From contig NZ_RQYZ01000016.1 in the NCBI RefSeq assembly GCF_003932855.1, positions 1 to 50,550 of the forward strand: a stretch of DNA of 50,550 nt, read 5' to 3'. Under the pieces are notes generated by a model that was given only the letters and a program-made list of their open reading frames with translations, had not been told where the DNA came from and made no database searches. Shown in pieces: positions 4,454-45,800 of the stretch. Each line of letters begins with the position of its first letter. The first letter of the stretch is position 1. Source of the stretch: Tessaracoccus sp. OH4464_COT-324 (lineage in GTDB: Bacteria; Actinomycetota; Actinomycetes; Propionibacteriales; Propionibacteriaceae). The position numbers and the translations under genes were made by a program.

Positions 4454-4527
4454 CGGGCTCGCGGAAGCGCCGCCGGCGCGGGGAGCATCAGCACACGGGC
4501 CGGGCCCGACGCGGAACGCGCCCGGCG

Positions 4528-5970
4528 TCAAGCGGTCACCACCATCTCCCGAGTCACGTCCTGGAAACGGGTCAGCGGGGTGGTGGCCGGATTCCACGTC
4601 TCCACCGCCTTGCCCTCGCGCAGCACGATCAGGCGGTCGCAGTTGCGCTGCAACTCCGCCTCGTTGGAGCTGAACAGGATCACCGCCAGCCCCGCCGCGG
4701 TGCGCTCCTCAATGCTCTGCCAGAACTCCTCCTGCGCCGCCAGATCCAGCGAATGCGTCGGGTTACTCAACACCAGCACCGTCGCCTCCGTCGCCACCTG
4801 CTCGGTGAGCACCCGCCGACGGTGCTGCCCATGGGAGAGCCCGTTGCGCAACAGCCGACGGCTCATCTGCTCGCTGTCGCGGATCATCATGAGGATCTGC
4901 TTCGCGAACAGCACCTCGCGGTCATTCGCCACGCTGGAGCCGATCATCAGGTTGCGGGCGAAAAACTCCTCCGCGTCGTCGTCGTCCAAACCCGTCAGGA
5001 TGCCGATGCGATGCATCGTCGCGTCGCTTGGCGTCGTGATCTGGAACCACTCGTCGGCCATGTAGAACGTGAGCGCCTCGCACGGCGTCTTCCCGTTCAG
5101 CGCCCGGAACAGCTCCTCCACGCCCGACGCGCGCGAGCCGATGAAACCGAGCACCTCGCCGCGATGCAGATCGAAGGACACCCGGGTGCCCTGGCCACCG
5201 GGGGAGCGCACACTCAACACCACATCCTCGGTGGCGTGGCTCTGCCGCTCGCGCACCTCGAACACCCGGTCGTAGATGGCCTCGCTGAGCTCCTCCTCCG
5301 TGGTGCTCCCCGCCTCCAGGATCTTGCTGATCACGCCATCGCGCAGCACCGCTATGCGGTCGCACACCTGCAGCGCGTCCGCCAGGTTATGGGTGATGTA
5401 AACCACCGCTCCTTGGTTCTCCGTGCACCGCTTCAACGCGAAGTGCAGATCCTCCTTCTCGCGGGCGTTGAATACCTCGCCCACCTCGTCCATCACGGTG
5501 ACGGGATGCGGGTCGGCGAGGATGCGCACCACCTCAAGCAGCCGCTTGTCGTAGGCGCTGAGGCTCTCCACCTGCTCCTCCAGATCCAGCGCGATGCCGG
5601 TCTGGAACAGCGCCAGTCGCGCCGTGCGCAGCAGATCCTCGAACGGCACATCCGTGGTGTCGCGCTTGCGGAACAGCGCCTCCATGACGCTCAGGCCGTT
5701 CGGGATGCTCGTGCGCTGCTCGATGAGGCTCACAAAGCGTTCCCGGGAGTCGGCGCATTCGATGGTGCCCTCGTCGTAGCCATCCGTTCCGGCCAGGAGG
5801 TGGGCCAGCGTGGACTTGCCCGCGCCGTTCTGCCCGACGAGGCCCAACACCTCGCCCGGGCGCAGCTCGAACTCGACGCCGCTCAGGACCTGTTTGTTGT
5901 CATACGATTTGCGCAACCCGGAAACGCGGAGGAGAGGCTGCTCCATGGCCTGCCCGCTTTCGTGAATCAT
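4528..5970 (-). CDS. Tandem ABC ATPase (RbsA/MglA-like) with degenerate sites, no permease nearby
   Basis: 480 residues, two fused nucleotide-binding domains as in sugar-importer ATPases. Domain 1 keeps the Walker A motif (GQNGAGKST, about residues 48-56) and a His switch (ITHN), but its signature is altered (LSAYDKR) and Walker B reads TVMDEVGE. Domain 2 has a broken Walker A (GSRASGVEE), a good signature (LSHGQHRRR), and Walker B VLVLSNPTHSLD without the acidic pair; its His switch is FSSN. It may therefore bind ATP at one composite site, or be mainly structural. ATG with GGGAG upstream, 4 nt after the coiled-coil gene. No permease or binding protein is adjacent, so a sugar-transport role is not supported. 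Confidence 0.8.
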   Translation of the reverse strand: MIHESGQAMEQPLLRVSGLRKSYDNKQVLSGVEFELRPGEVLGLVGQNGAGKSTLAHLLAGTDGYDEGTIECADSRERFVSLIEQRTSIPNGLSVMEALFRKRDTTDVPFEDLLRTARLALFQTGIALDLEEQVESLSAYDKRLLEVVRILADPHPVTVMDEVGEVFNAREKEDLHFALKRCTENQGAVVYITHNLADALQVCDRIAVLRDGVISKILEAGSTTEEELSEAIYDRVFEVRERQSHATEDVVLSVRSPGGQGTRVSFDLHRGEVLGFIGSRASGVEELFRALNGKTPCEALTFYMADEWFQITTPSDATMHRIGILTGLDDDDAEEFFARNLMIGSSVANDREVLFAKQILMMIRDSEQMSRRLLRNGLSHGQHRRRVLTEQVATEATVLVLSNPTHSLDLAAQEEFWQSIEERTAAGLAVILFSSNEAELQRNCDRLIVLREGKAVETWNPATTPLTRFQDVTREMVVTA

Positions 5971-11861: not shown

Positions 11862-12427
11862 TCGATTCCAATCTGGCCGCGCTGGCCGCGGTCGAAGGGG
11901 TGCTTGATCTTCGTCATCTCGGTCACCAGATCCGCGAACTCGATCACCGGTTCGGGGCAGCGTCGCCCCGTGATGATCACGTGCTGCTTGCCGGGGCGCG
12001 CCCTCAGCGTGTCGATCACCTCGGCCGGGTCGACCCAGCCCCAGGCCATGGGGTAGGTGAACTCGTCGAGCAGCCACAGCTGGTGGCGCTGCTCGGCGAT
12101 GCCCTCCGCGACGTGGCGCCAGCCCGCGCGCGCGGCCTCGGCTTTCTGGTCTTCGGAGAACGGGCTGCGGATCCACGACCAGCCCTGGCCGAGCGCCTCC
12201 CACTGCACGCGCGGCCCCAGCTCGCCCAACTCCTGGAAGGCGCGCTGCTCGCCGACGCGCCACCTGCCCGATTTCACGAACTGGAACACCCCGACGCTGC
12301 CGCCAGCCGCCCAGGTGCGCAGCGCGATCCCGAGGGCCGCGGTGGTTTTGCCCTTGCCATCCCCGGTGTGCACGATCACGAGCGGCTGGTTGCGGAGCTC
12401 GGCGGTGCTGGCGTGCGTTTCGGTCAC
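11855..12427 (-). CDS. cobO: Cob(I)yrinic acid a,c-diamide adenosyltransferase
   Basis: 190 residues, BtuR/CobO type. Transfers the adenosyl group from ATP to Co(I) to form the Co-C bond. The P-loop is VHTGDGKGKTTAALG (about residues 19-33); FQFVKSGRW and LLDEFTYPMAWGWVD are also typical of the family. GTG start with no ribosome site; a CAGTAT hexamer ends 7 nt upstream, so transcription may start at the GTG. Head of the cobO-cbiA-cobA operon and divergent from cbiP/cobQ (79 nt between starts). No riboswitch precedes it. Confidence 0.94.
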   Translation of the reverse strand: MTETHASTAELRNQPLVIVHTGDGKGKTTAALGIALRTWAAGGSVGVFQFVKSGRWRVGEQRAFQELGELGPRVQWEALGQGWSWIRSPFSEDQKAEAARAGWRHVAEGIAEQRHQLWLLDEFTYPMAWGWVDPAEVIDTLRARPGKQHVIITGRRCPEPVIEFADLVTEMTKIKHPFDRGQRGQIGIEW

Positions 12428-12494
12428 GCGCCCAATACTGGCATAGACCTCCGGCGCCGTGCGGCTCGCTGGCCGCGCCGCGGCGACGCCCGGC

Positions 12495-12500
12495 TAGGCT
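12495..12500 (+). promoter_or_regulatory. -10 box for leaderless cbiP/cobQ
   Basis: TAGGCT followed by 6 nt and ATG (12507). The in-frame GTG at 12501 would lie upstream of the predicted transcript start. Confidence 0.5.
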
Positions 12501-12506
12501 GTGCGC

Positions 12507-14012
12507 ATGGTTGGCATGTTGATCGCCGGTACTTCGTCGGATGCGGGCAAATCCCTGGTGGTGACCGGCCTGTGCCGCGCCTTTAAGCGGCGCGGCATCG
12601 ACGTCGCGCCCTACAAGGCGCAGAACATGAGCAACAACTCGATGGTGTGCGCCGACGGCGCCGAAATCGGGCGCGCCCAGTATCTGCAAGCGCTCGCCGC
12701 CGGCGTCGAACCCAGCTCCGCCATGAACCCGGTGCTGCTGAAACCCGGCTCGGATCGGCGCAGCTTCATCGTGCTGCGCGGCCAGCCGGGCGGGGTGCTC
12801 GAATCCGGCCAGTACGCGACGGGCCGCGCCCATCTGGCCGAGGCCGCGCGCGCCGCCTACCGCGAGCTGGCCGAGCGGCACGAACTGATCGTGTGCGAGG
12901 GGGCGGGCAGCCCCGCGGAGATCAACCTGCGCGCCGGCGACTACGTCAACATGGGCCACGCACGCCACTTCAACCTGCCCGTGATCCTCGTCGGCGACAT
13001 CGACCGCGGCGGGGTGCTGGCCGCCATCTACGGCACCTGGGGGCTGCTCGAACCCGACGACCGCCGCCTGCTCGCGGGCTACATCATCAACAAGTTCCGC
13101 GGCGACGACACCATCCTCGCGCCCGGGCTCGCGGAGCTCTCCGCCCGCTGCGGCCTCGCCCACCTGGGCACACTGCCCTGGCTGCGCGGCGTCTGGCTCG
13201 ACGGCGAGGACACGCTCACCGTCGGCCGCTGGCGCGCCGAGGGCGACGCGGGGGACGAGCTGAAGGTCGCCGTGATCCGCCTGCCGCGCATCTCCAACGC
13301 CACCGACGTCGACGCGCTCGCGCAGGAGCCGGGAGTTACGGTGCAGGTCACCACCGACCCGCGCGTCGTCGCCGCAGCCGACCTGGCGGTGCTGCCCGGG
13401 TCCCGCTCCACGCTGAGCGATCTGGCGTGGCTGCGCGAACAGGGCCTGGCGGAGGCCCTGGAGCGCCGCGGAGCCCAGGGCGCGCCGGTGTTCGCGGTGT
13501 GCGGCGGGTTCCAGATGCTCGGTCACGACATCGACGACCCCGTTGAGGGCCAGGGCCGCGCCCGGGGACTCGGCCTGCTGCCCATCGACGTCGCTTTCCA
13601 TCCCGAGAAGATCGTCGCGCGCGCCACCAGCAGCTGGCGCGGGCACCCGGTGTCCGGCTACGAGATCCACCACGGCGTGTGCACCCCTCACCCCGGCGCG
13701 GAGCCTTTCCTCGACGGGGTACGCGCCGGCAACGTGTGGGGCACCATGCTGCACGGCTCACTCGAATCCGACGGTTTCCGCCGAGCCTTCCTCGCCGACG
13801 TGGCCGCCGCCAGCGGCGCGGAATGGCGTCCCAGCGCCGACGCCCCGACGATGGGCGAGCGCCGCGAGCGGATGATCGACACGCTCGCCGACGCCTGCGA
13901 GCGCCACCTGGACCTGGAAAGGCTGCTGGAACTGGCTAGACTGTCCGCCAGCGACCACCCAGCCGAAGCGAAGGAATCCGGTGAGAATCCGGGAGCGGTG
14001 CCGCCACTGTGA
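12507..14012 (+). CDS. cbiP: Cobyric acid synthase (riboswitch-encoded C-terminal tail)
   Basis: 501 residues (CobQ/CbiP). Amidates the b, d, e and g side chains of adenosylcobyrinic a,c-diamide. N-terminal P-loop (AGTSSDAGKS), YKAQNMSNNS, EGAGSPAEINLR, VGDIDRGGV, and the C-terminal amidotransferase domain with VCGGFQMLG (Cys) and GTMLHGSLESDG (His). ATG at 12507 sits 6 nt after TAGGCT. The last 12 codons (ESGENPGAVPPL) and the TGA are the core of the cobalamin aptamer that precedes cbiL, so the C-terminus is dictated by RNA constraint. Ribosomes finishing this gene must pass through that aptamer. Confidence 0.95.
   Translation: MVGMLIAGTSSDAGKSLVVTGLCRAFKRRGIDVAPYKAQNMSNNSMVCADGAEIGRAQYLQALAAGVEPSSAMNPVLLKPGSDRRSFIVLRGQPGGVLESGQYATGRAHLAEAARAAYRELAERHELIVCEGAGSPAEINLRAGDYVNMGHARHFNLPVILVGDIDRGGVLAAIYGTWGLLEPDDRRLLAGYIINKFRGDDTILAPGLAELSARCGLAHLGTLPWLRGVWLDGEDTLTVGRWRAEGDAGDELKVAVIRLPRISNATDVDALAQEPGVTVQVTTDPRVVAAADLAVLPGSRSTLSDLAWLREQGLAEALERRGAQGAPVFAVCGGFQMLGHDIDDPVEGQGRARGLGLLPIDVAFHPEKIVARATSSWRGHPVSGYEIHHGVCTPHPGAEPFLDGVRAGNVWGTMLHGSLESDGFRRAFLADVAAASGAEWRPSADAPTMGERRERMIDTLADACERHLDLERLLELARLSASDHPAEAKESGENPGAVPPL
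13937..13942 (+). promoter_or_regulatory. Promoter -10 box inside cobQ for the cbiL riboswitch transcript
   Basis: TAGACT at 13937-13942, 16 nt after a TGGAAA hexamer. The same TAGACT hexamer precedes the cbiM riboswitch. It would start RNA just before the aptamer, inside the cobQ reading frame. Confidence 0.45.
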
Positions 14013-14065
14013 CCACGAACTCGTGGGAGCCAGATACTTCCGGGCTGGGCAAGACCACTCGGGCG
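13949..14065 (+). promoter_or_regulatory. Cobalamin riboswitch upstream of cbiL, overlapping the cobQ 3' end
   Basis: Conserved aptamer pieces appear in order: GAAGGAATCCGGTGAGAATC (13968-13990 region), the B12 box GCCGCCACTGT (14000-14010), a small hairpin (CCACGAACTCGTGG) and GGGAGCCAGATAC (14025-14037). This is the AdoCbl-class consensus. The cbiL ribosome site (AAGGAGG, 14074-14080) lies just downstream, so translational control is likely; it should repress the cbiL-cbiF-cbiEGH-cbiX operon when B12 is abundant. The B12 box ends at the cobQ TGA. Confidence 0.93.
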
Positions 14066-14086
14066 AGACACCCAAGGAGGCCTCAT

Positions 14087-14833
14087 ATGACGAGCAAGCG
14101 CGCGCTGATTGGCGTGGGGGTTGGCCCCGGCGACCCCGAGCTCGTGACCGTGAAAGCCCTCAACCGGTTGGCTGAGGCCGACGTGATCCTGGTGCCCAGC
14201 ACCGAGGCCCGGGCGGGCAGCGTCGGGCGCGCGGAGGAGATCGTCCTCAGCCACCTGCCACACAAGGCCGCCGCCATCGAGCGCATCCCGTTCTCGATGG
14301 CCGAGCGCCGCGGGGTCGGCGAGCAGCGCGCGACCGCCTGGGAGCTGTCCGCCGACGCCGCCGTCTCGGCCTTCGAAGCTGGCGCGCGCACCGTGGCGTT
14401 CGCGACGGTGGGCGACGCCTCCGTGTTCTCCACCTTCTCCTACCTGTGCGACCTGGTGACGAGCCGGGTCGACGTCGAACCCGAGGTGATCCCCGGCATC
14501 ACCGCCATGCAGGCCCTCGCCGCGCGCAGCCGCACCCCGCTCGCCGAAGGCCAGGAGGTTCTCTCACTGGTGCCGTGGACCGTGGGCGTCGAGACGCTGG
14601 AACGGGTGTGCGAGGTGTCCGACACCGTGGTCATCTACAAGGGCGGCCGGGAGCTGACCCAGCTGCGCGCCGCGCTGGAGCGGCAGGGCAGGCTCGACTC
14701 CGCCGTGCTGGGCACCGACCTCGGCCTGGACACGGAGGCCATCGTCGCGCTCGCCGACGCTAATCCGCGCGCGCCCTACTTCAGCACGGTGCTCTCCGCG
14801 CCCGAGCGCACAACAACAGGAGGAAGACTGTGA
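14087..14833 (+). CDS. cbiL: (Cobalt-)precorrin-2 C20-methyltransferase
   Basis: 248 residues. Methylates C20 of (cobalt-)precorrin-2 with SAM. The tetrapyrrole methylase fold is shown by LIGVGVGPGDPELVTVKAL at the start, the FATVGDASVFSTFSYL loop, PGITAMQALAARS, and the C-terminal VLGTDLGLDTEAI. An open frame extends upstream into the riboswitch, but the ATG at 14087 with AAGGAGG 6 nt before it is clearly the start. First gene of the riboswitch-controlled operon; its TGA overlaps the cbiF GTG. Confidence 0.94.
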   Translation: MTSKRALIGVGVGPGDPELVTVKALNRLAEADVILVPSTEARAGSVGRAEEIVLSHLPHKAAAIERIPFSMAERRGVGEQRATAWELSADAAVSAFEAGARTVAFATVGDASVFSTFSYLCDLVTSRVDVEPEVIPGITAMQALAARSRTPLAEGQEVLSLVPWTVGVETLERVCEVSDTVVIYKGGRELTQLRAALERQGRLDSAVLGTDLGLDTEAIVALADANPRAPYFSTVLSAPERTTTGGRL

Positions 14834-15687: not shown

Positions 15688-18107
15688 TCACTGTCTACGG
15701 ACACCTGGGCGCCCCCGGCGATGAGCTGCGCGCCGCCGTCGCCGCCGCCGACGTGGCGGTCGGGGGGCGGCGCCACCTCGACGAGTTGGGCGTGCCCGAG
15801 GACAAGCGGATCGTGCTCGGCGCGCTGACCCCCGCCGTCGAGCAGATCCGCCAACTGCCCGCAGAAACCAACGTCGTGATCCTCGCCTCCGGCGACCCGC
15901 TGTGGTTCGGCGTGGTACGCAAGCTGCGCTCCGCCGGGCTGCGGCCCAAGGTGATCACGCGGGCGTCGTCGGTGGCGGAGGCGTTCGCGCGCGTCGGGCT
16001 GCCCTGGGACGACGCGGTGACGGTCTCCGCACACGGCCGACCCATCGACCCCGCCGTCGCGGCTGCGAAGCGCTACTCGAAGGTGGCGGTGATGACCGAC
16101 CACCGCGTGCCCCTGAGCGCCCTCACCGAGCCTCTGGCCGGCCTGGAGCGCACCTTCGTGCTCGCCGAACGCCTGGGGGAGAGCGATGAGCGGGTGCAGA
16201 TCCTCACCGGCGACGAGCTCGCCGCCGTCGAGGACGTCCGCCAACCCAACGTCGTGCTCGTGTTGGAGAAGCACCCCGACGCCGACTGGGACGACGAGGC
16301 CGTGGCCGTCACCGGCCCGCGGCGCGTCGCGGCCCCGACGGTGGTGCGGGAACGCCTGGCGACCACGCCGCTGGCGGAACTCACCGTCGGGCAGGTGGTT
16401 TCCAGCTCGCATGGCCGCGGCCGCGCGGCCCGCATCGACGAGCTGCTGGGCGAGACCCGCATCTACGACGGGCCGGCGGCGGAGGGGCTGGAGCGGGCCT
16501 TCGAGGAGTGCGACCTCGTGATCTCCCACCTGGCGCTCGGCGCCACCACCCGCATCATCGCGCCGCTGCTGGAGAGTAAGAAGACCGACCCTGGCGTGGT
16601 CGTCATCGACCAGGGCGGCACCTTCGTCGTGCCCCTGGTGGGCGGCCACGTCGGCGGCGCCAACGAACTGGCGGAGAAGCTGGCCGAACACCTGGGCGCT
16701 ACCGCGGTGGTCACCACCGCCACCGACTCGCTCGGCGTGCCCGCGCTCGACACCCTCGGCTGGGCGCATTCCGGGGACGTGGCCGGCGTCACTGCGGCGA
16801 TGCTGGAGGGCCGCGGCGTCCAGGTGGTCCGCGAGCAGCTGTGGCCGCTGCCGCCGCTGCCGAAGAACGTCTTCACCGCGCCTGACATCGAGGTCGCAGC
16901 CCAGATTGTGGTCACCGACCGGGAGGAGAGCCTGCTGGAGCCCACCGACCTGCCGCGCGTGGTGCTGCACCCGCGTTCCCTCGTGGTGGGCATGGGCTGC
17001 AACCGCGGCACGTCGGAGGAAGTGCTGCGCGCCCACCTGGAGCTGACGCTCGCCGAGGCCGGGCTGTCGCTGCACTCCGTGGCGGCGCTGACCAGCGTCG
17101 ATGTGAAGGCGCACGAGGGCGGCCTGGTGCGGCTGGCCAAACATCTCGGCGTGCCGTACATCTGCTACGAGGCGGCCGAGCTGGCCGAGATCGAGGTGCC
17201 GACGCCGTCCGACGTGGTGGCCAGCGAGGTGGGCACGCCCAGCGTCTCTGAGGCATCAGTGATCAACTACGGCGCCGAGCTGATCGTGCCGAAACGCAAG
17301 TGCCCCGACGCCACCTGCGCGGTGGGCAGGGTTCCCGCTCGCGGCGAGCTGCGCGTCGTGGGCCTGGGCCCCGGTCACCGGGACCTGCTGACCCCGATGG
17401 CCAAGCAGGCCATCGAGACGGCCACGGTGGTGGTGGGCTACATCCCCTACGTGCGCCAGATCAAGGATCTGGTCAGTCCCCACGCCGAACTGCACGCCAC
17501 GAAGATGGGCACCGAGGAGGAGCGCACCGCGCACGCCATCCAGCGCGCCCGCGAGGGCCACGCCGTCGCGTTCGTCTGTTCGGGGGATCCCGCGATCTAC
17601 GCGATGGCCTCGCCCACCCTGGAGCAGGGCACCGAAGGCATCGACGTGCGCGTCATCCCCGGCGTGACCGCTGAGTTGGCCGCGTCCGCGCTGCTGGGCG
17701 CGCCGCTCGGCCACGACCACGTGACCATCTCGCTGTCCGACCTGCACACGTCCTGGGAGGACATCGAGCGCAGGCTGGAGGCGGCTGCGGAGGGCGACTT
17801 CGTGACCGTGCTGTACAACCCCCGGTCCCGCAAACGCACCCGGCACCTGCCGCGCGCGCTGGAAATCCTGGGCGCGAAGCGGCCTGCCGACGTGCCGGTG
17901 ATGGCCGTGTACGAGGCGTTCCGGCCTAAGCAGCGCATCCGGTGGGCGCCGATCGGCGAGTTCCAGCCGGAGTGGGTGGACATGCACACGATCGTCATCG
18001 TCGGCTCCTCGACGACGAAGCCGGTTGTCTCCGGCGGCGGCGAGGAGCGGATCGTCACCCCGCGTGACTACCAGTGGATGGGCAAGATTCAAGGAGGAAA
18101 CTGCTGA
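15684..18107 (+). CDS. cbiEGH: Trifunctional CbiE-CbiG-CbiH fusion
   Basis: 807 residues with three enzymes in line. Residues 1 to about 210: CbiE, C5-methyltransferase (VVILASGDPLWFGV). About 232-548: CbiG, cobalt-precorrin-5A hydrolase that opens the delta-lactone, with both its N half (LVISHLALGATTRIIAPLL, VVIDQGGTFVVPLVGGH) and C half (LVVGMGCNRGTSEEVL). About 553-807: CbiH, C17-methyltransferase and ring contraction (RVVGLGPGHRDLLTPMA, VCSGDPAIYAMAS). CbiG marks the anaerobic pathway. The CbiT partner often fused to CbiE is encoded separately at 24989-25561. ATG start overlaps the cbiF stop; the stop overlaps the next ATG by one base. A similar fusion is known in propionibacteria. Confidence 0.94.
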   Translation: MITVYGHLGAPGDELRAAVAAADVAVGGRRHLDELGVPEDKRIVLGALTPAVEQIRQLPAETNVVILASGDPLWFGVVRKLRSAGLRPKVITRASSVAEAFARVGLPWDDAVTVSAHGRPIDPAVAAAKRYSKVAVMTDHRVPLSALTEPLAGLERTFVLAERLGESDERVQILTGDELAAVEDVRQPNVVLVLEKHPDADWDDEAVAVTGPRRVAAPTVVRERLATTPLAELTVGQVVSSSHGRGRAARIDELLGETRIYDGPAAEGLERAFEECDLVISHLALGATTRIIAPLLESKKTDPGVVVIDQGGTFVVPLVGGHVGGANELAEKLAEHLGATAVVTTATDSLGVPALDTLGWAHSGDVAGVTAAMLEGRGVQVVREQLWPLPPLPKNVFTAPDIEVAAQIVVTDREESLLEPTDLPRVVLHPRSLVVGMGCNRGTSEEVLRAHLELTLAEAGLSLHSVAALTSVDVKAHEGGLVRLAKHLGVPYICYEAAELAEIEVPTPSDVVASEVGTPSVSEASVINYGAELIVPKRKCPDATCAVGRVPARGELRVVGLGPGHRDLLTPMAKQAIETATVVVGYIPYVRQIKDLVSPHAELHATKMGTEEERTAHAIQRAREGHAVAFVCSGDPAIYAMASPTLEQGTEGIDVRVIPGVTAELAASALLGAPLGHDHVTISLSDLHTSWEDIERRLEAAAEGDFVTVLYNPRSRKRTRHLPRALEILGAKRPADVPVMAVYEAFRPKQRIRWAPIGEFQPEWVDMHTIVIVGSSTTKPVVSGGGEERIVTPRDYQWMGKIQGGNC

Positions 18108-19336
18108 TGACTACACAACTTGTGGGCGACGTGCCGCTGATCGTGGCCGCGCACGGCTCCCGCGACCCCGAGGGCGTCGCGGTGTGCCGGGCGCTCGTCG
18201 AGCGGGTACGCGCCAAACTGCCGGGCAGCAAGGTGACGCTCGGCTTCGTCGAGCTGGCCGAGCCCAGCATCGCGGAGGCCGTCGCGGAGGCCGTGGCGGA
18301 CCGAAAGATCACGGGGGAGGTGGACGCGGTGCTGGTGCCGCTGATGCTCGCGACGGGTGGTCACGTCCGCGAGGACATCCCCGAGTCGATCGACGAGGGC
18401 CGCGGGGAGGCTCGCGTGTGCTACGCGGCGCCGCTGCTGCCGAGCCCCCTGCTGCTCGGTGCGCTGAAGCGGCGGGTTGCCGAGGCGCTGGGCGACTGGC
18501 GCTCCAAGGACACCGCCTGCGTGCTGGTGGGCCGTGGCTCGCTCGTCACCGCCGCCAACGCCGAGCACTACCGGCTGGCCCGCTCGCTCATGGAGGAAGC
18601 GGAACTGGGCAGCGTGTACCCCGCGTTCATCCAGGTGTCGCGTCCGTCCATCCCGGAGGCGCTGAGCGCCGCCAAGGCCTCGGGCGCTCAGCGCATCGTC
18701 GTGGCGCAGCACTTCCTGTTCCCCGGCAAGCTGCGCACCTGGACCTTCGATCAGGTGGGCGCTTGGGCGGAGCAGCACCCGGACGTGGAGGTGCGTGTCG
18801 CCGAGGTGATCGGCGACTGCGACGAGTTGGCGCAGCTGGTCGTTGATCGCTACACGGCAGAGCTGGACGCGGAGGGCGTGGCCGATGGCGCTCCGGGTTA
18901 CATGACCAGCCTCAGCCTCGTGGGCCGCGACGTGTTGGTCGTCGGCGGCGGGGCGGTGGCCGCGCGGCGTATCCCGCGCCTGCTCGCCTCGGGCGCGAAG
19001 GTGCGGGTGGTGGCGCCTAACCTGGGCATCGCGGTAGGCCGGCTCGCCGCCAGCGGCGCGATCGCCGTCGAGCGTCGGGCGGTGCGGGCCGAGGACGTGG
19101 CGGGTGCCTGGTACGTGCTGGCGGCGAGCAACGATCCTGCTGTCAACGAGATGGTGGCTGCGGAGGCGGAGCGCGCGCACACGTTCTGCGTGCGCGCCGA
19201 CAACGCCGTCGCGGGCTCGGCGGCTACCCCGGCGACGGCGTCGGCCGGCGGCCTGACGGTGGCTGTGGTGGGCGACCGCAACCCCAGGCGTTCCGTCAGG
19301 GTGCGTGACGAACTGCTGAAGGTTCTCCAGGGCTGA
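18107..19336 (+). CDS. cbiX: CbiX cobaltochelatase fused to SirC-type precorrin-2 dehydrogenase
   Basis: 409 residues. Residues 8 to about 255 form a two-lobed CbiX-type sirohydrochlorin cobaltochelatase: the first lobe has LIVAAHGSRDPEG and the metal-site MLATGGHVREDIP, the second VLVGRGSL and VVAQHFLFPGKL. About 266-409 is a SirC/Met8-like NAD-dependent precorrin-2 dehydrogenase (VLVVGGGAVAARRIPRLLAS, VLAASNDPAVNEMVA). The fusion joins two consecutive steps, precorrin-2 to sirohydrochlorin to cobalt-sirohydrochlorin, and shows early cobalt insertion. ATG overlaps the preceding TGA by one base, with AAGGAGG upstream. Last gene of the riboswitch operon. Confidence 0.93.
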   Translation: MTTQLVGDVPLIVAAHGSRDPEGVAVCRALVERVRAKLPGSKVTLGFVELAEPSIAEAVAEAVADRKITGEVDAVLVPLMLATGGHVREDIPESIDEGRGEARVCYAAPLLPSPLLLGALKRRVAEALGDWRSKDTACVLVGRGSLVTAANAEHYRLARSLMEEAELGSVYPAFIQVSRPSIPEALSAAKASGAQRIVVAQHFLFPGKLRTWTFDQVGAWAEQHPDVEVRVAEVIGDCDELAQLVVDRYTAELDAEGVADGAPGYMTSLSLVGRDVLVVGGGAVAARRIPRLLASGAKVRVVAPNLGIAVGRLAASGAIAVERRAVRAEDVAGAWYVLAASNDPAVNEMVAAEAERAHTFCVRADNAVAGSAATPATASAGGLTVAVVGDRNPRRSVRVRDELLKVLQG

Positions 19337-22173: not shown

Positions 22174-22241
22174 GTTCGTTGATGTCCTGAACCGTAATGT
22201 TCATTTCGCAGCATTCACGCCCCGCCCCCGGGCCCGGTAGT

Positions 22242-22247
22242 AGACTC
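22242..22247 (+). promoter_or_regulatory. -10 box for the cbiM riboswitch transcript
   Basis: TAGACT, identical to the hexamer ahead of the cbiL riboswitch. Expected start of RNA about 22254, just before the aptamer. Confidence 0.45.
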
Positions 22248-22253
22248 GGCCCC

Positions 22254-22375
22254 GTACCGCCTGAGAGCGGTATGCGGGGAAGCTGGGTGAGCCAGCGCGG
22301 TCGCGCCACTGTAGCCACACCTTGTGTGGGAGCCAGACCCCCGCTCACTACCTGATTCGGGACGCGCAATCCCGG
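22254..22375 (+). promoter_or_regulatory. Cobalamin riboswitch upstream of cbiMNQO
   Basis: Aptamer pieces in order: GGGGAAGCTGGGTGAGCCAG (22275-22294 region), B12 box GCGCCACTGT (22302-22311), a hairpin with ACACCTTGTGT, and GGGAGCCAGACCCCC (22327-22341). Matches the AdoCbl-class consensus and sits directly ahead of a cobalt transporter, so B12 should shut off cobalt uptake. The cbiM start has only a weak GGAG 14-17 nt upstream, so the mode of control (transcriptional or translational) is unclear. Confidence 0.95.
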
Positions 22376-22391: not shown

Positions 22392-23078
22392 ATGCACATC
22401 GCCGAGGGCTATCTGCCCCTGACACACGCGGTGGCTTGGACGGTTGCCGCGGCGCCCTTCGTGGTGCACGGCGCAAGCGCCGTCGTCAAGTCCGTCCGCC
22501 AGAACCCGGAAAACAAGCTTCTCCTTGCGGCCGCAGCCGGATTCACCTTCGTGCTGTCCGCCATCAAACTGCCCAGCGTCACGGGCAGCTCCTCGCACCC
22601 CACAGGCACCGGCCTGGGAGCCGTGCTGTTCAAACCGCCGGTGATGGCCTTCCTGGGCACCATGGTTCTCCTATTCCAGGCCCTCCTGCTCGCCCACGGC
22701 GGGCTGACGACGCTCGGCGCCAACGCATTCTCTATGGCGATAGCCGGGCCATGGGTGGGCTACGGCGCCTGGGTGCTGTGCCGCAAGCTGGGCGCCCCGA
22801 AGGAGGTGGCGATCTTCTTCGCGATGGCGTTGGCAGACCTCAGCACCTACTGCGTCACCTCGCTGCAGCTTGCCATCGCCTACCCGGATCCGACGAGCGG
22901 TTTCGGCGGCGCCGTCGCCACCTTCATGAGCGTTTTCGCGCTCACCCAGATCCCGCTGGCCATCATGGAGGGCCTGCTGGGCGTCGTCGTGATCCGTTTC
23001 CTGGCCAAGGTGGCCGCGTCGGACCTCATCCGGCTGAAGGTGTTGAAGCAGAGCGAGATGGAGGCCGCACATGTCTGA
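22392..23078 (+). CDS. cbiM: Cobalt ECF transporter substrate-specific component CbiM
   Basis: 228 residues, polytopic membrane protein. The mature N-terminus [13 protein letters not shown] is the metal-binding signature in which the N-terminal amine and His2 coordinate Co2+. Further family motifs are [20 protein letters not shown] and [20 protein letters not shown], with about six hydrophobic helices. First gene of cbiM-cbiN-cbiQ-cbiO behind a cobalamin riboswitch; cbiN starts inside its last codons (8-nt overlap). It supplies the cobalt used by CbiX. Confidence 0.96.
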
Positions 23079-32408: not shown

Positions 32409-32775
32409 GCGGACGAGTCAGCCAGATGATCGCGGCCCTTGTGGGGCTGAGGAAAGTCCGGGCTCCGCAGAGCACGGTGGTGGGTAACGCCCACCCGGGG
32501 TGACCCGAGGGCAAGTGCAACAGAAAGCAAACCGCCTGGCGACAGGTAAGGGTGAAACGGTGGTGTAAGAGACCACCAGCGCGGCAGGTGACTGTGGCGG
32601 CTAGGTAAACCCCACCGGGAGCAAGACCAAGAAGGCCTCCGGGCCGCGGACACCGATCGAGCGCTGCTCGCGCGAGGTGTTCGGGTAGGTCGCACGAGCG
32701 GCGCGGCAACGCGTCGCCTCAGATAGATGATCATCCGATGACAGAACCCGGCTTACCGGCTGGCTCGTCCCCTCC
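32409..32775 (+). ncRNA. rnpB: RNase P RNA, bacterial class A
   Basis: Catalytic RNA that removes tRNA 5' leaders. Universally conserved blocks appear in order: GAGGAAAGTCCGGGCTCC (about 32450), ACAGAAAGCAAACCGCC, GGTAAGGGTGAAACGGTGG, AGCAAGACCAAGAAGGC, AGATAGATGATCATCC, and ACAGAACCCGGCTTACCGG near the 3' end. The 5' GGACGAG pairs with the 3' CTCGTCC, closing helix P1 and setting both ends to within a few bases. Confidence 0.97.
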
Positions 32776-45656: not shown

Positions 45657-45664
45657 CGGAGGCA

Positions 45665-45800
45665 CGTATTCCGGGGTCGGTGAAAGTCCGAACCGGCGGT
45701 CAAAGCCCGCGACCCTCCGCGCCACGCGCAGAGGTTGACTCGGTGGAATTCCGGGGCCGACAGTAAAAGTCTGGATGGGAGGAATGCGAGCGGTGCGCCT
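45665..45800 (+). promoter_or_regulatory. FMN riboswitch (RFN element)
   Basis: Conserved blocks: GGGGTCGGTGAAAGTCCGAA (from 45673), ACCGGCGGTCAAAGCCCGCGACC (45692-45714), GGTGGAATTCCGGGGCCGAC (45742-45761) and AGTCTGGATGGGAGGAA (45768-45784). These are the signature strands of the FMN aptamer. A GCCCCGG run near 45817-45824 could pair with CCGGGGC in the aptamer, with the ribX ribosome site (AAGGAG, about 45833) just after, consistent with translational control. Confidence 0.95.

Follow-up and report, generated by a model that had tools for sequence, protein, structure and literature searches.

Cobalamin riboswitches are collected in the Rfam Cobalamin clan (CL00101, with RF01482 and RF00174). 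The element described here has in common with the clan the GGAA junction, P3, the GCCACTG core, the P5 hairpin, the AGCCAG box and a position ahead of a B12 gene. It differs from the clan in its sub-threshold scores and its coding 5' half, and inspection shows no long P8-P12-type extension. Two actinobacterial systems in which translation meets a B12 aptamer have been described in M. tuberculosis. For metE, removal of the start codon of an upstream ORF (uORF) inside the aptamer raised MetE-LacZ more than 10-fold, and the B12 response was kept (PMC11260477). PPE2 expression requires translation of its uORF, which lies 3' of the ppe2 aptamer and is coupled by AUGA (PMC11260477). Interplay between translation and B12 switches is thus possible, there by way of small ORFs (PMC11260477).

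Here we describe a locus in a 50,550-nucleotide stretch of Tessaracoccus sp. OH4464_COT-324 (the window). Like metE and ppe2, it has translated codons in or beside an actinobacterial B12 aptamer; in M. tuberculosis, translation has been shown to affect the gene downstream. The M. tuberculosis frames are short uORFs. In the window a full enzyme gene runs into the aptamer with its 3' end, and its stop lies 75 nt upstream of the next start. Among the open-licence PMC papers listed in literature searches, no title or abstract opening describes an enzyme gene that terminates within a cobalamin aptamer. The locus offers a natural case, simple to test, in which ribosomes that translate an enzyme gene would pass through the core of a riboswitch.

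The aptamer at the end of cobQ

A cobalamin aptamer lies on the forward strand at 13958-14049, 5' of cbiL (Table 1). The traits of the family are present (GGAA, the GCCACTG core, a B12 box and a closing P2 helix), and the element stands before a B12 gene, as is expected of the family. A preliminary description had nested a cobalamin riboswitch in the 3' coding end of cobQ ahead of cbiL, and this arrangement is borne out by the cobQ frame, which spans the 5' half of the aptamer. The frame crosses the P2 5' strand, GGAA, P3 and GCCACTG and ends in ESGENPGAVPPL followed by the stop. From the P2 5' strand through the cobQ stop, 55 nt (13958-14012) are used both as aptamer and as codons; such an overlap is one of the traits expected of a ribosome-coupled switch. 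Gene callers will call this portion of the aptamer a protein tail. The B12 box had been described as ending at the cobQ stop codon, which proved mistaken. The stop is the TGA of the core ACTGTGA, and what had been labelled as the box corresponds to the GCCACTGTGA core. The AGCCAG-ATACT stretch, which we take to be the proper B12 box, lies 3' of the stop.

Table 1. Features around the end of cobQ, the aptamer and the start of cbiL (window coordinates).
Feature	Position	Strand	Basis
cobQ (cobyric acid synthase), 503 codons	12501-14012	+	NF001989, 573.8 bits, residues 6-479; TIGR00313, 420.7 bits, residues 7-474
cobQ tail, 23 residues past the family profile (residues 481-503)	13941-14009	+	homologues end near residue 480
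-10-like box TAGACT, in cobQ codons GCT AGA CTG	13937-13942	+	similar box in 19 of 24 relatives
P2 5' strand CCCAGCC, coding	13958-13964	+	7 pairs with 14043-14049
Core (GGAA, P3, GCCACTG), all cobQ codons, up to stop TGA	13973-14012	+	R1 alignment; conserved columns
GGAA	13973-13976	+	sequence
GCCACTG	14003-14009	+	sequence
cobQ stop TGA, part of core ACTGTGA	14010-14012	+	sequence
P5-type hairpin CCACG-AACT-CGTGG	14013-14026	+	R1 alignment; sequence
Presumed B12 box AGCCAG-ATACT, non-coding here (AGCCAG 14028-14033)	14028-14038	+	sequence
P2 3' strand GGCTGGG	14043-14049	+	pairs with P2 5' strand
Expression platform: conserved CGGGCGAG-ACCC motif, then SD	14060-14080	+	GGGCG invariant in A2
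SD AAGGAGG	14074-14080	+	by inspection
cbiL/cobI (precorrin-2 C20-methyltransferase), ATG at 14087	14087-14833	+	TIGR01467, 228.6 bits; PF00590

The preliminary description had proposed a covariance scan, and its outcome depends on the model used. At gathering scores, an Rfam scan of the whole window gave no cobalamin match. RF01482 (AdoCbl) matched 13949-14086 with 38.6 bits (E 1.4e-5; gathering cut-off 50). RF00174 (Cobalamin) gave 27.8 bits against a cut-off of 31.5, the weakest among the six RF00174 matches listed in the same genome. We also give the score for R1, a covariance model from A2, an alignment of 22 cobQ-adjacent aptamers of relatives that excludes the window (22 of 26 sequences; L007, L016, L064 and L126 are omitted). 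R1 matched the held-out window element at 13954-14075 with 88.2 bits and an E-value of 6.3e-21, which is rough because calibration was shortened. R1 is weighted toward the core motif because the relatives were selected by that motif, though the window match covers the whole element. In A2, AG[CT]CAG and ACT are invariant, the C/T position aside. Four relatives were scanned with Rfam; the sisters L037 (31.3 bits) and L116 (26.3 bits) both fall under the RF00174 cut-off of 31.5, and L051 and L102 pass it. The low Rfam scores seem to be characteristic of the clade, and riboswitches of a lineage can thus score under Rfam cut-offs. Judged from its sequence, the element is a genuine cobalamin-type riboswitch. 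It is predicted to be a small AdoCbl-type switch that binds cobalamin and switches expression.

The overlap and the cobQ tail among relatives

The arrangement at the end of cobQ was compared across relatives, which by name are Propionibacteriaceae (Tessaracoccus, Arachnia and strain P6A17). In the family sample, 119 of 147 genomes have a cobQ match at E <= 0.001, although many of these matches are weak or partial; in the genus, 33 of 39 genomes have one at E <= 1e-50. The stronger matches gave 107 loci, with weak and partial ones omitted, and the cobQ 3' end was placed in 104 of these (3 without placement). The core motif occurs between -150 and +400 nt of the cobQ stop in 25 of the 104 loci. 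R1 adds L028, L036 and L102, which gives 28 cobQ-adjacent aptamers in Propionibacteriaceae; in L028 and L036 the distance from the cobQ stop to the start of the aptamer is 187 and 172 nt. The aptamer is wholly 3' of the cobQ stop in 25 of the 28 and overlaps cobQ in three, namely the window, G168 and G133. The depth of overlap varies. In G168 (L051) the coding part is the P2 5' strand, whose start is 11 nt upstream of the point where the cobQ stop ends. In G133 it is the P2 5' strand and J2/3, and the second cobQ (L102/L285) has a 27-residue tail that ends within an RF00174 match of 36.0 bits. In the window it is the whole 5' half, so no relative among the sequences compared has an aptamer that reaches as deep into its upstream enzyme gene. 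The aptamer of the second G133 cobQ is at L285 1957-2104, and the next ORF is BtuF-type lipoprotein-like (by eye).

Close relatives preserve steps from separate to nested. In G171 (L037) P2 begins 3 nt past the cobQ stop, and TAGACT lies inside cobQ, as in the window; G168 and G133 then follow in a graded series toward overlap. In a tree of CobQ the window groups with G105 and G171 (100/99), and G168 pairs with G084 (100/100), whose cobQ stops 61 nt before GGAA. The G168 overlap is separate from that of the window because of this pairing with a relative whose cobQ stops earlier. In the G133 overlap the cobQ involved is a second copy, and another gene lies downstream. One row of the tree, L042, is partial (38% filled) and probably misframed, and its placement is meaningless. 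In G105 (L116) an insert of 1.1 kb parts cobQ from the switch. This insert (L116 4458-5560) contains one long ORF (4474-5529) and has CGGATTGCGAT-type direct repeats at both ends (by eye). JHVD01000010.1 and the G105 contig have an identical cobQ tail and riboswitch score. In Tessaracoccus massiliensis (L034, L160) a cbiL-like frame lies directly 3' of cobQ, and R1 finds no riboswitch there.

Because cobQ stops before the aptamer in 25 of 28 cases, it appears that cobQ grew into an older aptamer. The opposite course, in which the 3' end of cobQ was recruited to form the riboswitch, accounts for the P2 5' strand and core lying inside the frame, but 25 of 28 relatives have the aptamer outside the gene, and CobQ homologues end before the tail. 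This co-option is therefore ruled out for practical purposes. The preliminary description had expected a shorter cobQ end in species that have no riboswitch here; the shorter end instead accompanies the riboswitch. It had also named homologues that share this C-terminus but have no aptamer as evidence against the nesting. The usual CobQ end in relatives is near LLxLAR before the stop, and the window tail (residues 481-503, LSASDHPAEAKESGENPGAVPPL) is absent from all of the other 103 placed cobQ ends, including those of G105 and G171. When four other aptamers are read in the frame of the cobQ tail, two end in SGAVPPL and two in SSGTVAPL, each followed by a stop. Since other aptamers give such endings in this frame, the tail peptide is what the conserved RNA yields in translation, and the triplet that stops it belongs to the aptamer. 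Wherever the window core and that of G171 differ, other relatives vary too, and no sign of coding constraint on the aptamer core was seen. The cobQ tail of G105, ARNGVPPLA, resembles GAVPPL in the same frame, and a riboswitch relic was considered; the resemblance was given no weight, because PP-rich ends occur in many actinobacterial CobQ tails and the G105 riboswitch is 1.1 kb further downstream.

The tail is known from one genome of the source species. An assembly or base-calling error could in principle have removed the cobQ stop, given a draft assembly of 217 contigs and a single genome, but the frame is intact to the normal C-terminus, third-position GC stays high in it (0.91), the P2 pairing is exact and related overlaps occur in G168 and G133, which makes an error highly improbable. 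The overlap is best explained by loss of the usual cobQ stop in this lineage. We propose that the lineage of the window shortened the spacer that separates cobQ from the switch and also lost the ancestral stop. The cobQ frame would then have extended by 23 codons, halting at the TGA that the aptamer core carries. The overlap is probably a by-product of this compaction.

Overlaps of this kind were also sought among 94 aptamers of the genus (5 from the same genome, 30 from the loci and 59 among the matches listed down to about 50 bits). The 79 that could be framed were used; the other 15 are without the motif at the expected place. Besides the window, 48 frames of at least 80 codons enter an aptamer, and Pfam recognises one of them, the G168 cobQ, in a scan that covered frames of at least 80 codons and that genes outside Pfam families escape. 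A recognisable upstream gene overlaps the aptamer in 2 of the 79 framed cases (among the matches listed), and both are cobQ. As judged by these comparisons, the cobQ-aptamer overlap is genuine and uncommon.

Promoter-like box, pairing and control of cbiL

The preliminary description had placed a -10 box inside cobQ. TAGACT is indeed there, and a box of the form TG N1-2 NAG[AGT][ACT]T, with its end 20-40 nt before GGAA, recurs in 19 of 24 relatives in addition to the window (L064 and L126 are omitted from the box and P2 comparisons). In 2000 rounds of shuffling the count averaged 0.24 and never exceeded 3. The pattern is post hoc, because the distance range was reset after the alignment had been viewed; with the initial range the count was 5 of 25, and shuffles averaged 1.6 and reached 6 at most. 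The box is missing in L016, L022, L049, L050 and L116, the last of which has TAGACT without TG. A full consensus promoter was not seen, as a scan of 12380-14200 found no -35/-10 pair (0 sites; shuffle mean 0.2). A consensus scan of the same region, including the cobQ-cbiL gap, found no terminator-like site. TAGACT is 30 nt from GGAA at the cobQ-end switch and 31 nt at the cbiM riboswitch. The latter is a second cobalamin riboswitch at 22259-22374 (+), before cbiM (22392-23078, PF01891), with TAGACT at 22241-22246. It matches R1 with 49.1 bits (E 6e-11) and is missing from the matches listed by Rfam at gathering score and by RF00174.

The seven pairs of P2 in the window are equalled by 3 of 300 shuffles. 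Across 25 sequences the best P2 helix scores 18.1 on average; the corresponding means are 12.4 with shuffles and 12.6 with strands paired across species. Individually, P2 is weak in nine of the 25 (L013, L022, L033, L045, L050, L065, L066, L072 and L080), where 24 to 218 of 300 shuffles match the best helix. The RNAalifold consensus for R1 does not include P2, and plain folding of the window element is unremarkable (z -1.35; 22 of 200 shuffles equally stable). As to an L5-L13 kissing loop that would mask the SD, an L13-like GGGCGAG motif is conserved in A2, and a consistent L5 partner was not found by eye.

Taken together, it is likely that the element is an AdoCbl-type switch for the cbiL operon, served by a promoter within cobQ, and that the overlap is mainly compaction after stop loss. 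The switch RNA would most likely come from a promoter with its -10 box in the last conserved cobQ codons. Such RNA would have its 5' end some 8-10 nt upstream of P2 and would lack the cobQ start, so that it could fold freely and show ordinary B12 repression. The switch probably controls the cbiL-led operon at translation initiation, with a predicted OFF action. On read-through RNA from the cobQ promoter, ribosomes would translate to 14012. There the switch would be transiently opened, because a ribosome at the stop covers the P2 5' strand, P3, the core and part of P5. The aptamer could refold between successive ribosomes. The read-through effect would hinge on the amount of read-through RNA and on the rate of cobQ translation, and the consequence for cbiL would be a modest leak of expression at most. 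Coupling of ribosome and riboswitch is physically plausible and follows from the geometry; no signature of selection for it is seen here.

A stronger role for this coupling can be envisaged, in which the overlap is kept since cobQ translation holds the aptamer open, so that cbiL is co-expressed even with B12 while RNA from the internal promoter is still repressible. If true, this would be a riboswitch gated by translation of the preceding gene. The geometry fits, as the cobQ frame covers the P2 5' strand, P3 and core; overlap arose in three lineages, and metE and ppe2 of M. tuberculosis provide cases of interplay between translation and a B12 switch (PMC11260477). But overlap is found in only 3 of 28 cases and at differing depths, the tail is unconserved even in G105 and G171, and refolding between ribosomes should bring control back. 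In M. tuberculosis, expression rose when the metE uORF was lost, and the B12 response was kept, which is not the direction that such an override would predict (PMC11260477). We consider this role unlikely. It is equally doubtful that an enzyme gene ending in the riboswitch core of its own pathway, with translation overriding B12 repression and a second repressible RNA from an internal promoter, is a design reached more than once in Propionibacteriaceae. The likely reading thus remains an ordinary B12 switch into which cobQ has run.

Other features of the window include an ORF at 18074-19336 (+) in which CbiX (PF01903) is fused to an NAD-binding siroheme-synthase-like domain (PF13241). The Rfam scan also located a class A RNase P RNA at 32414-32771 (+; 288.1 bits) and an FMN riboswitch at 45663-45790 (+; 100 bits).
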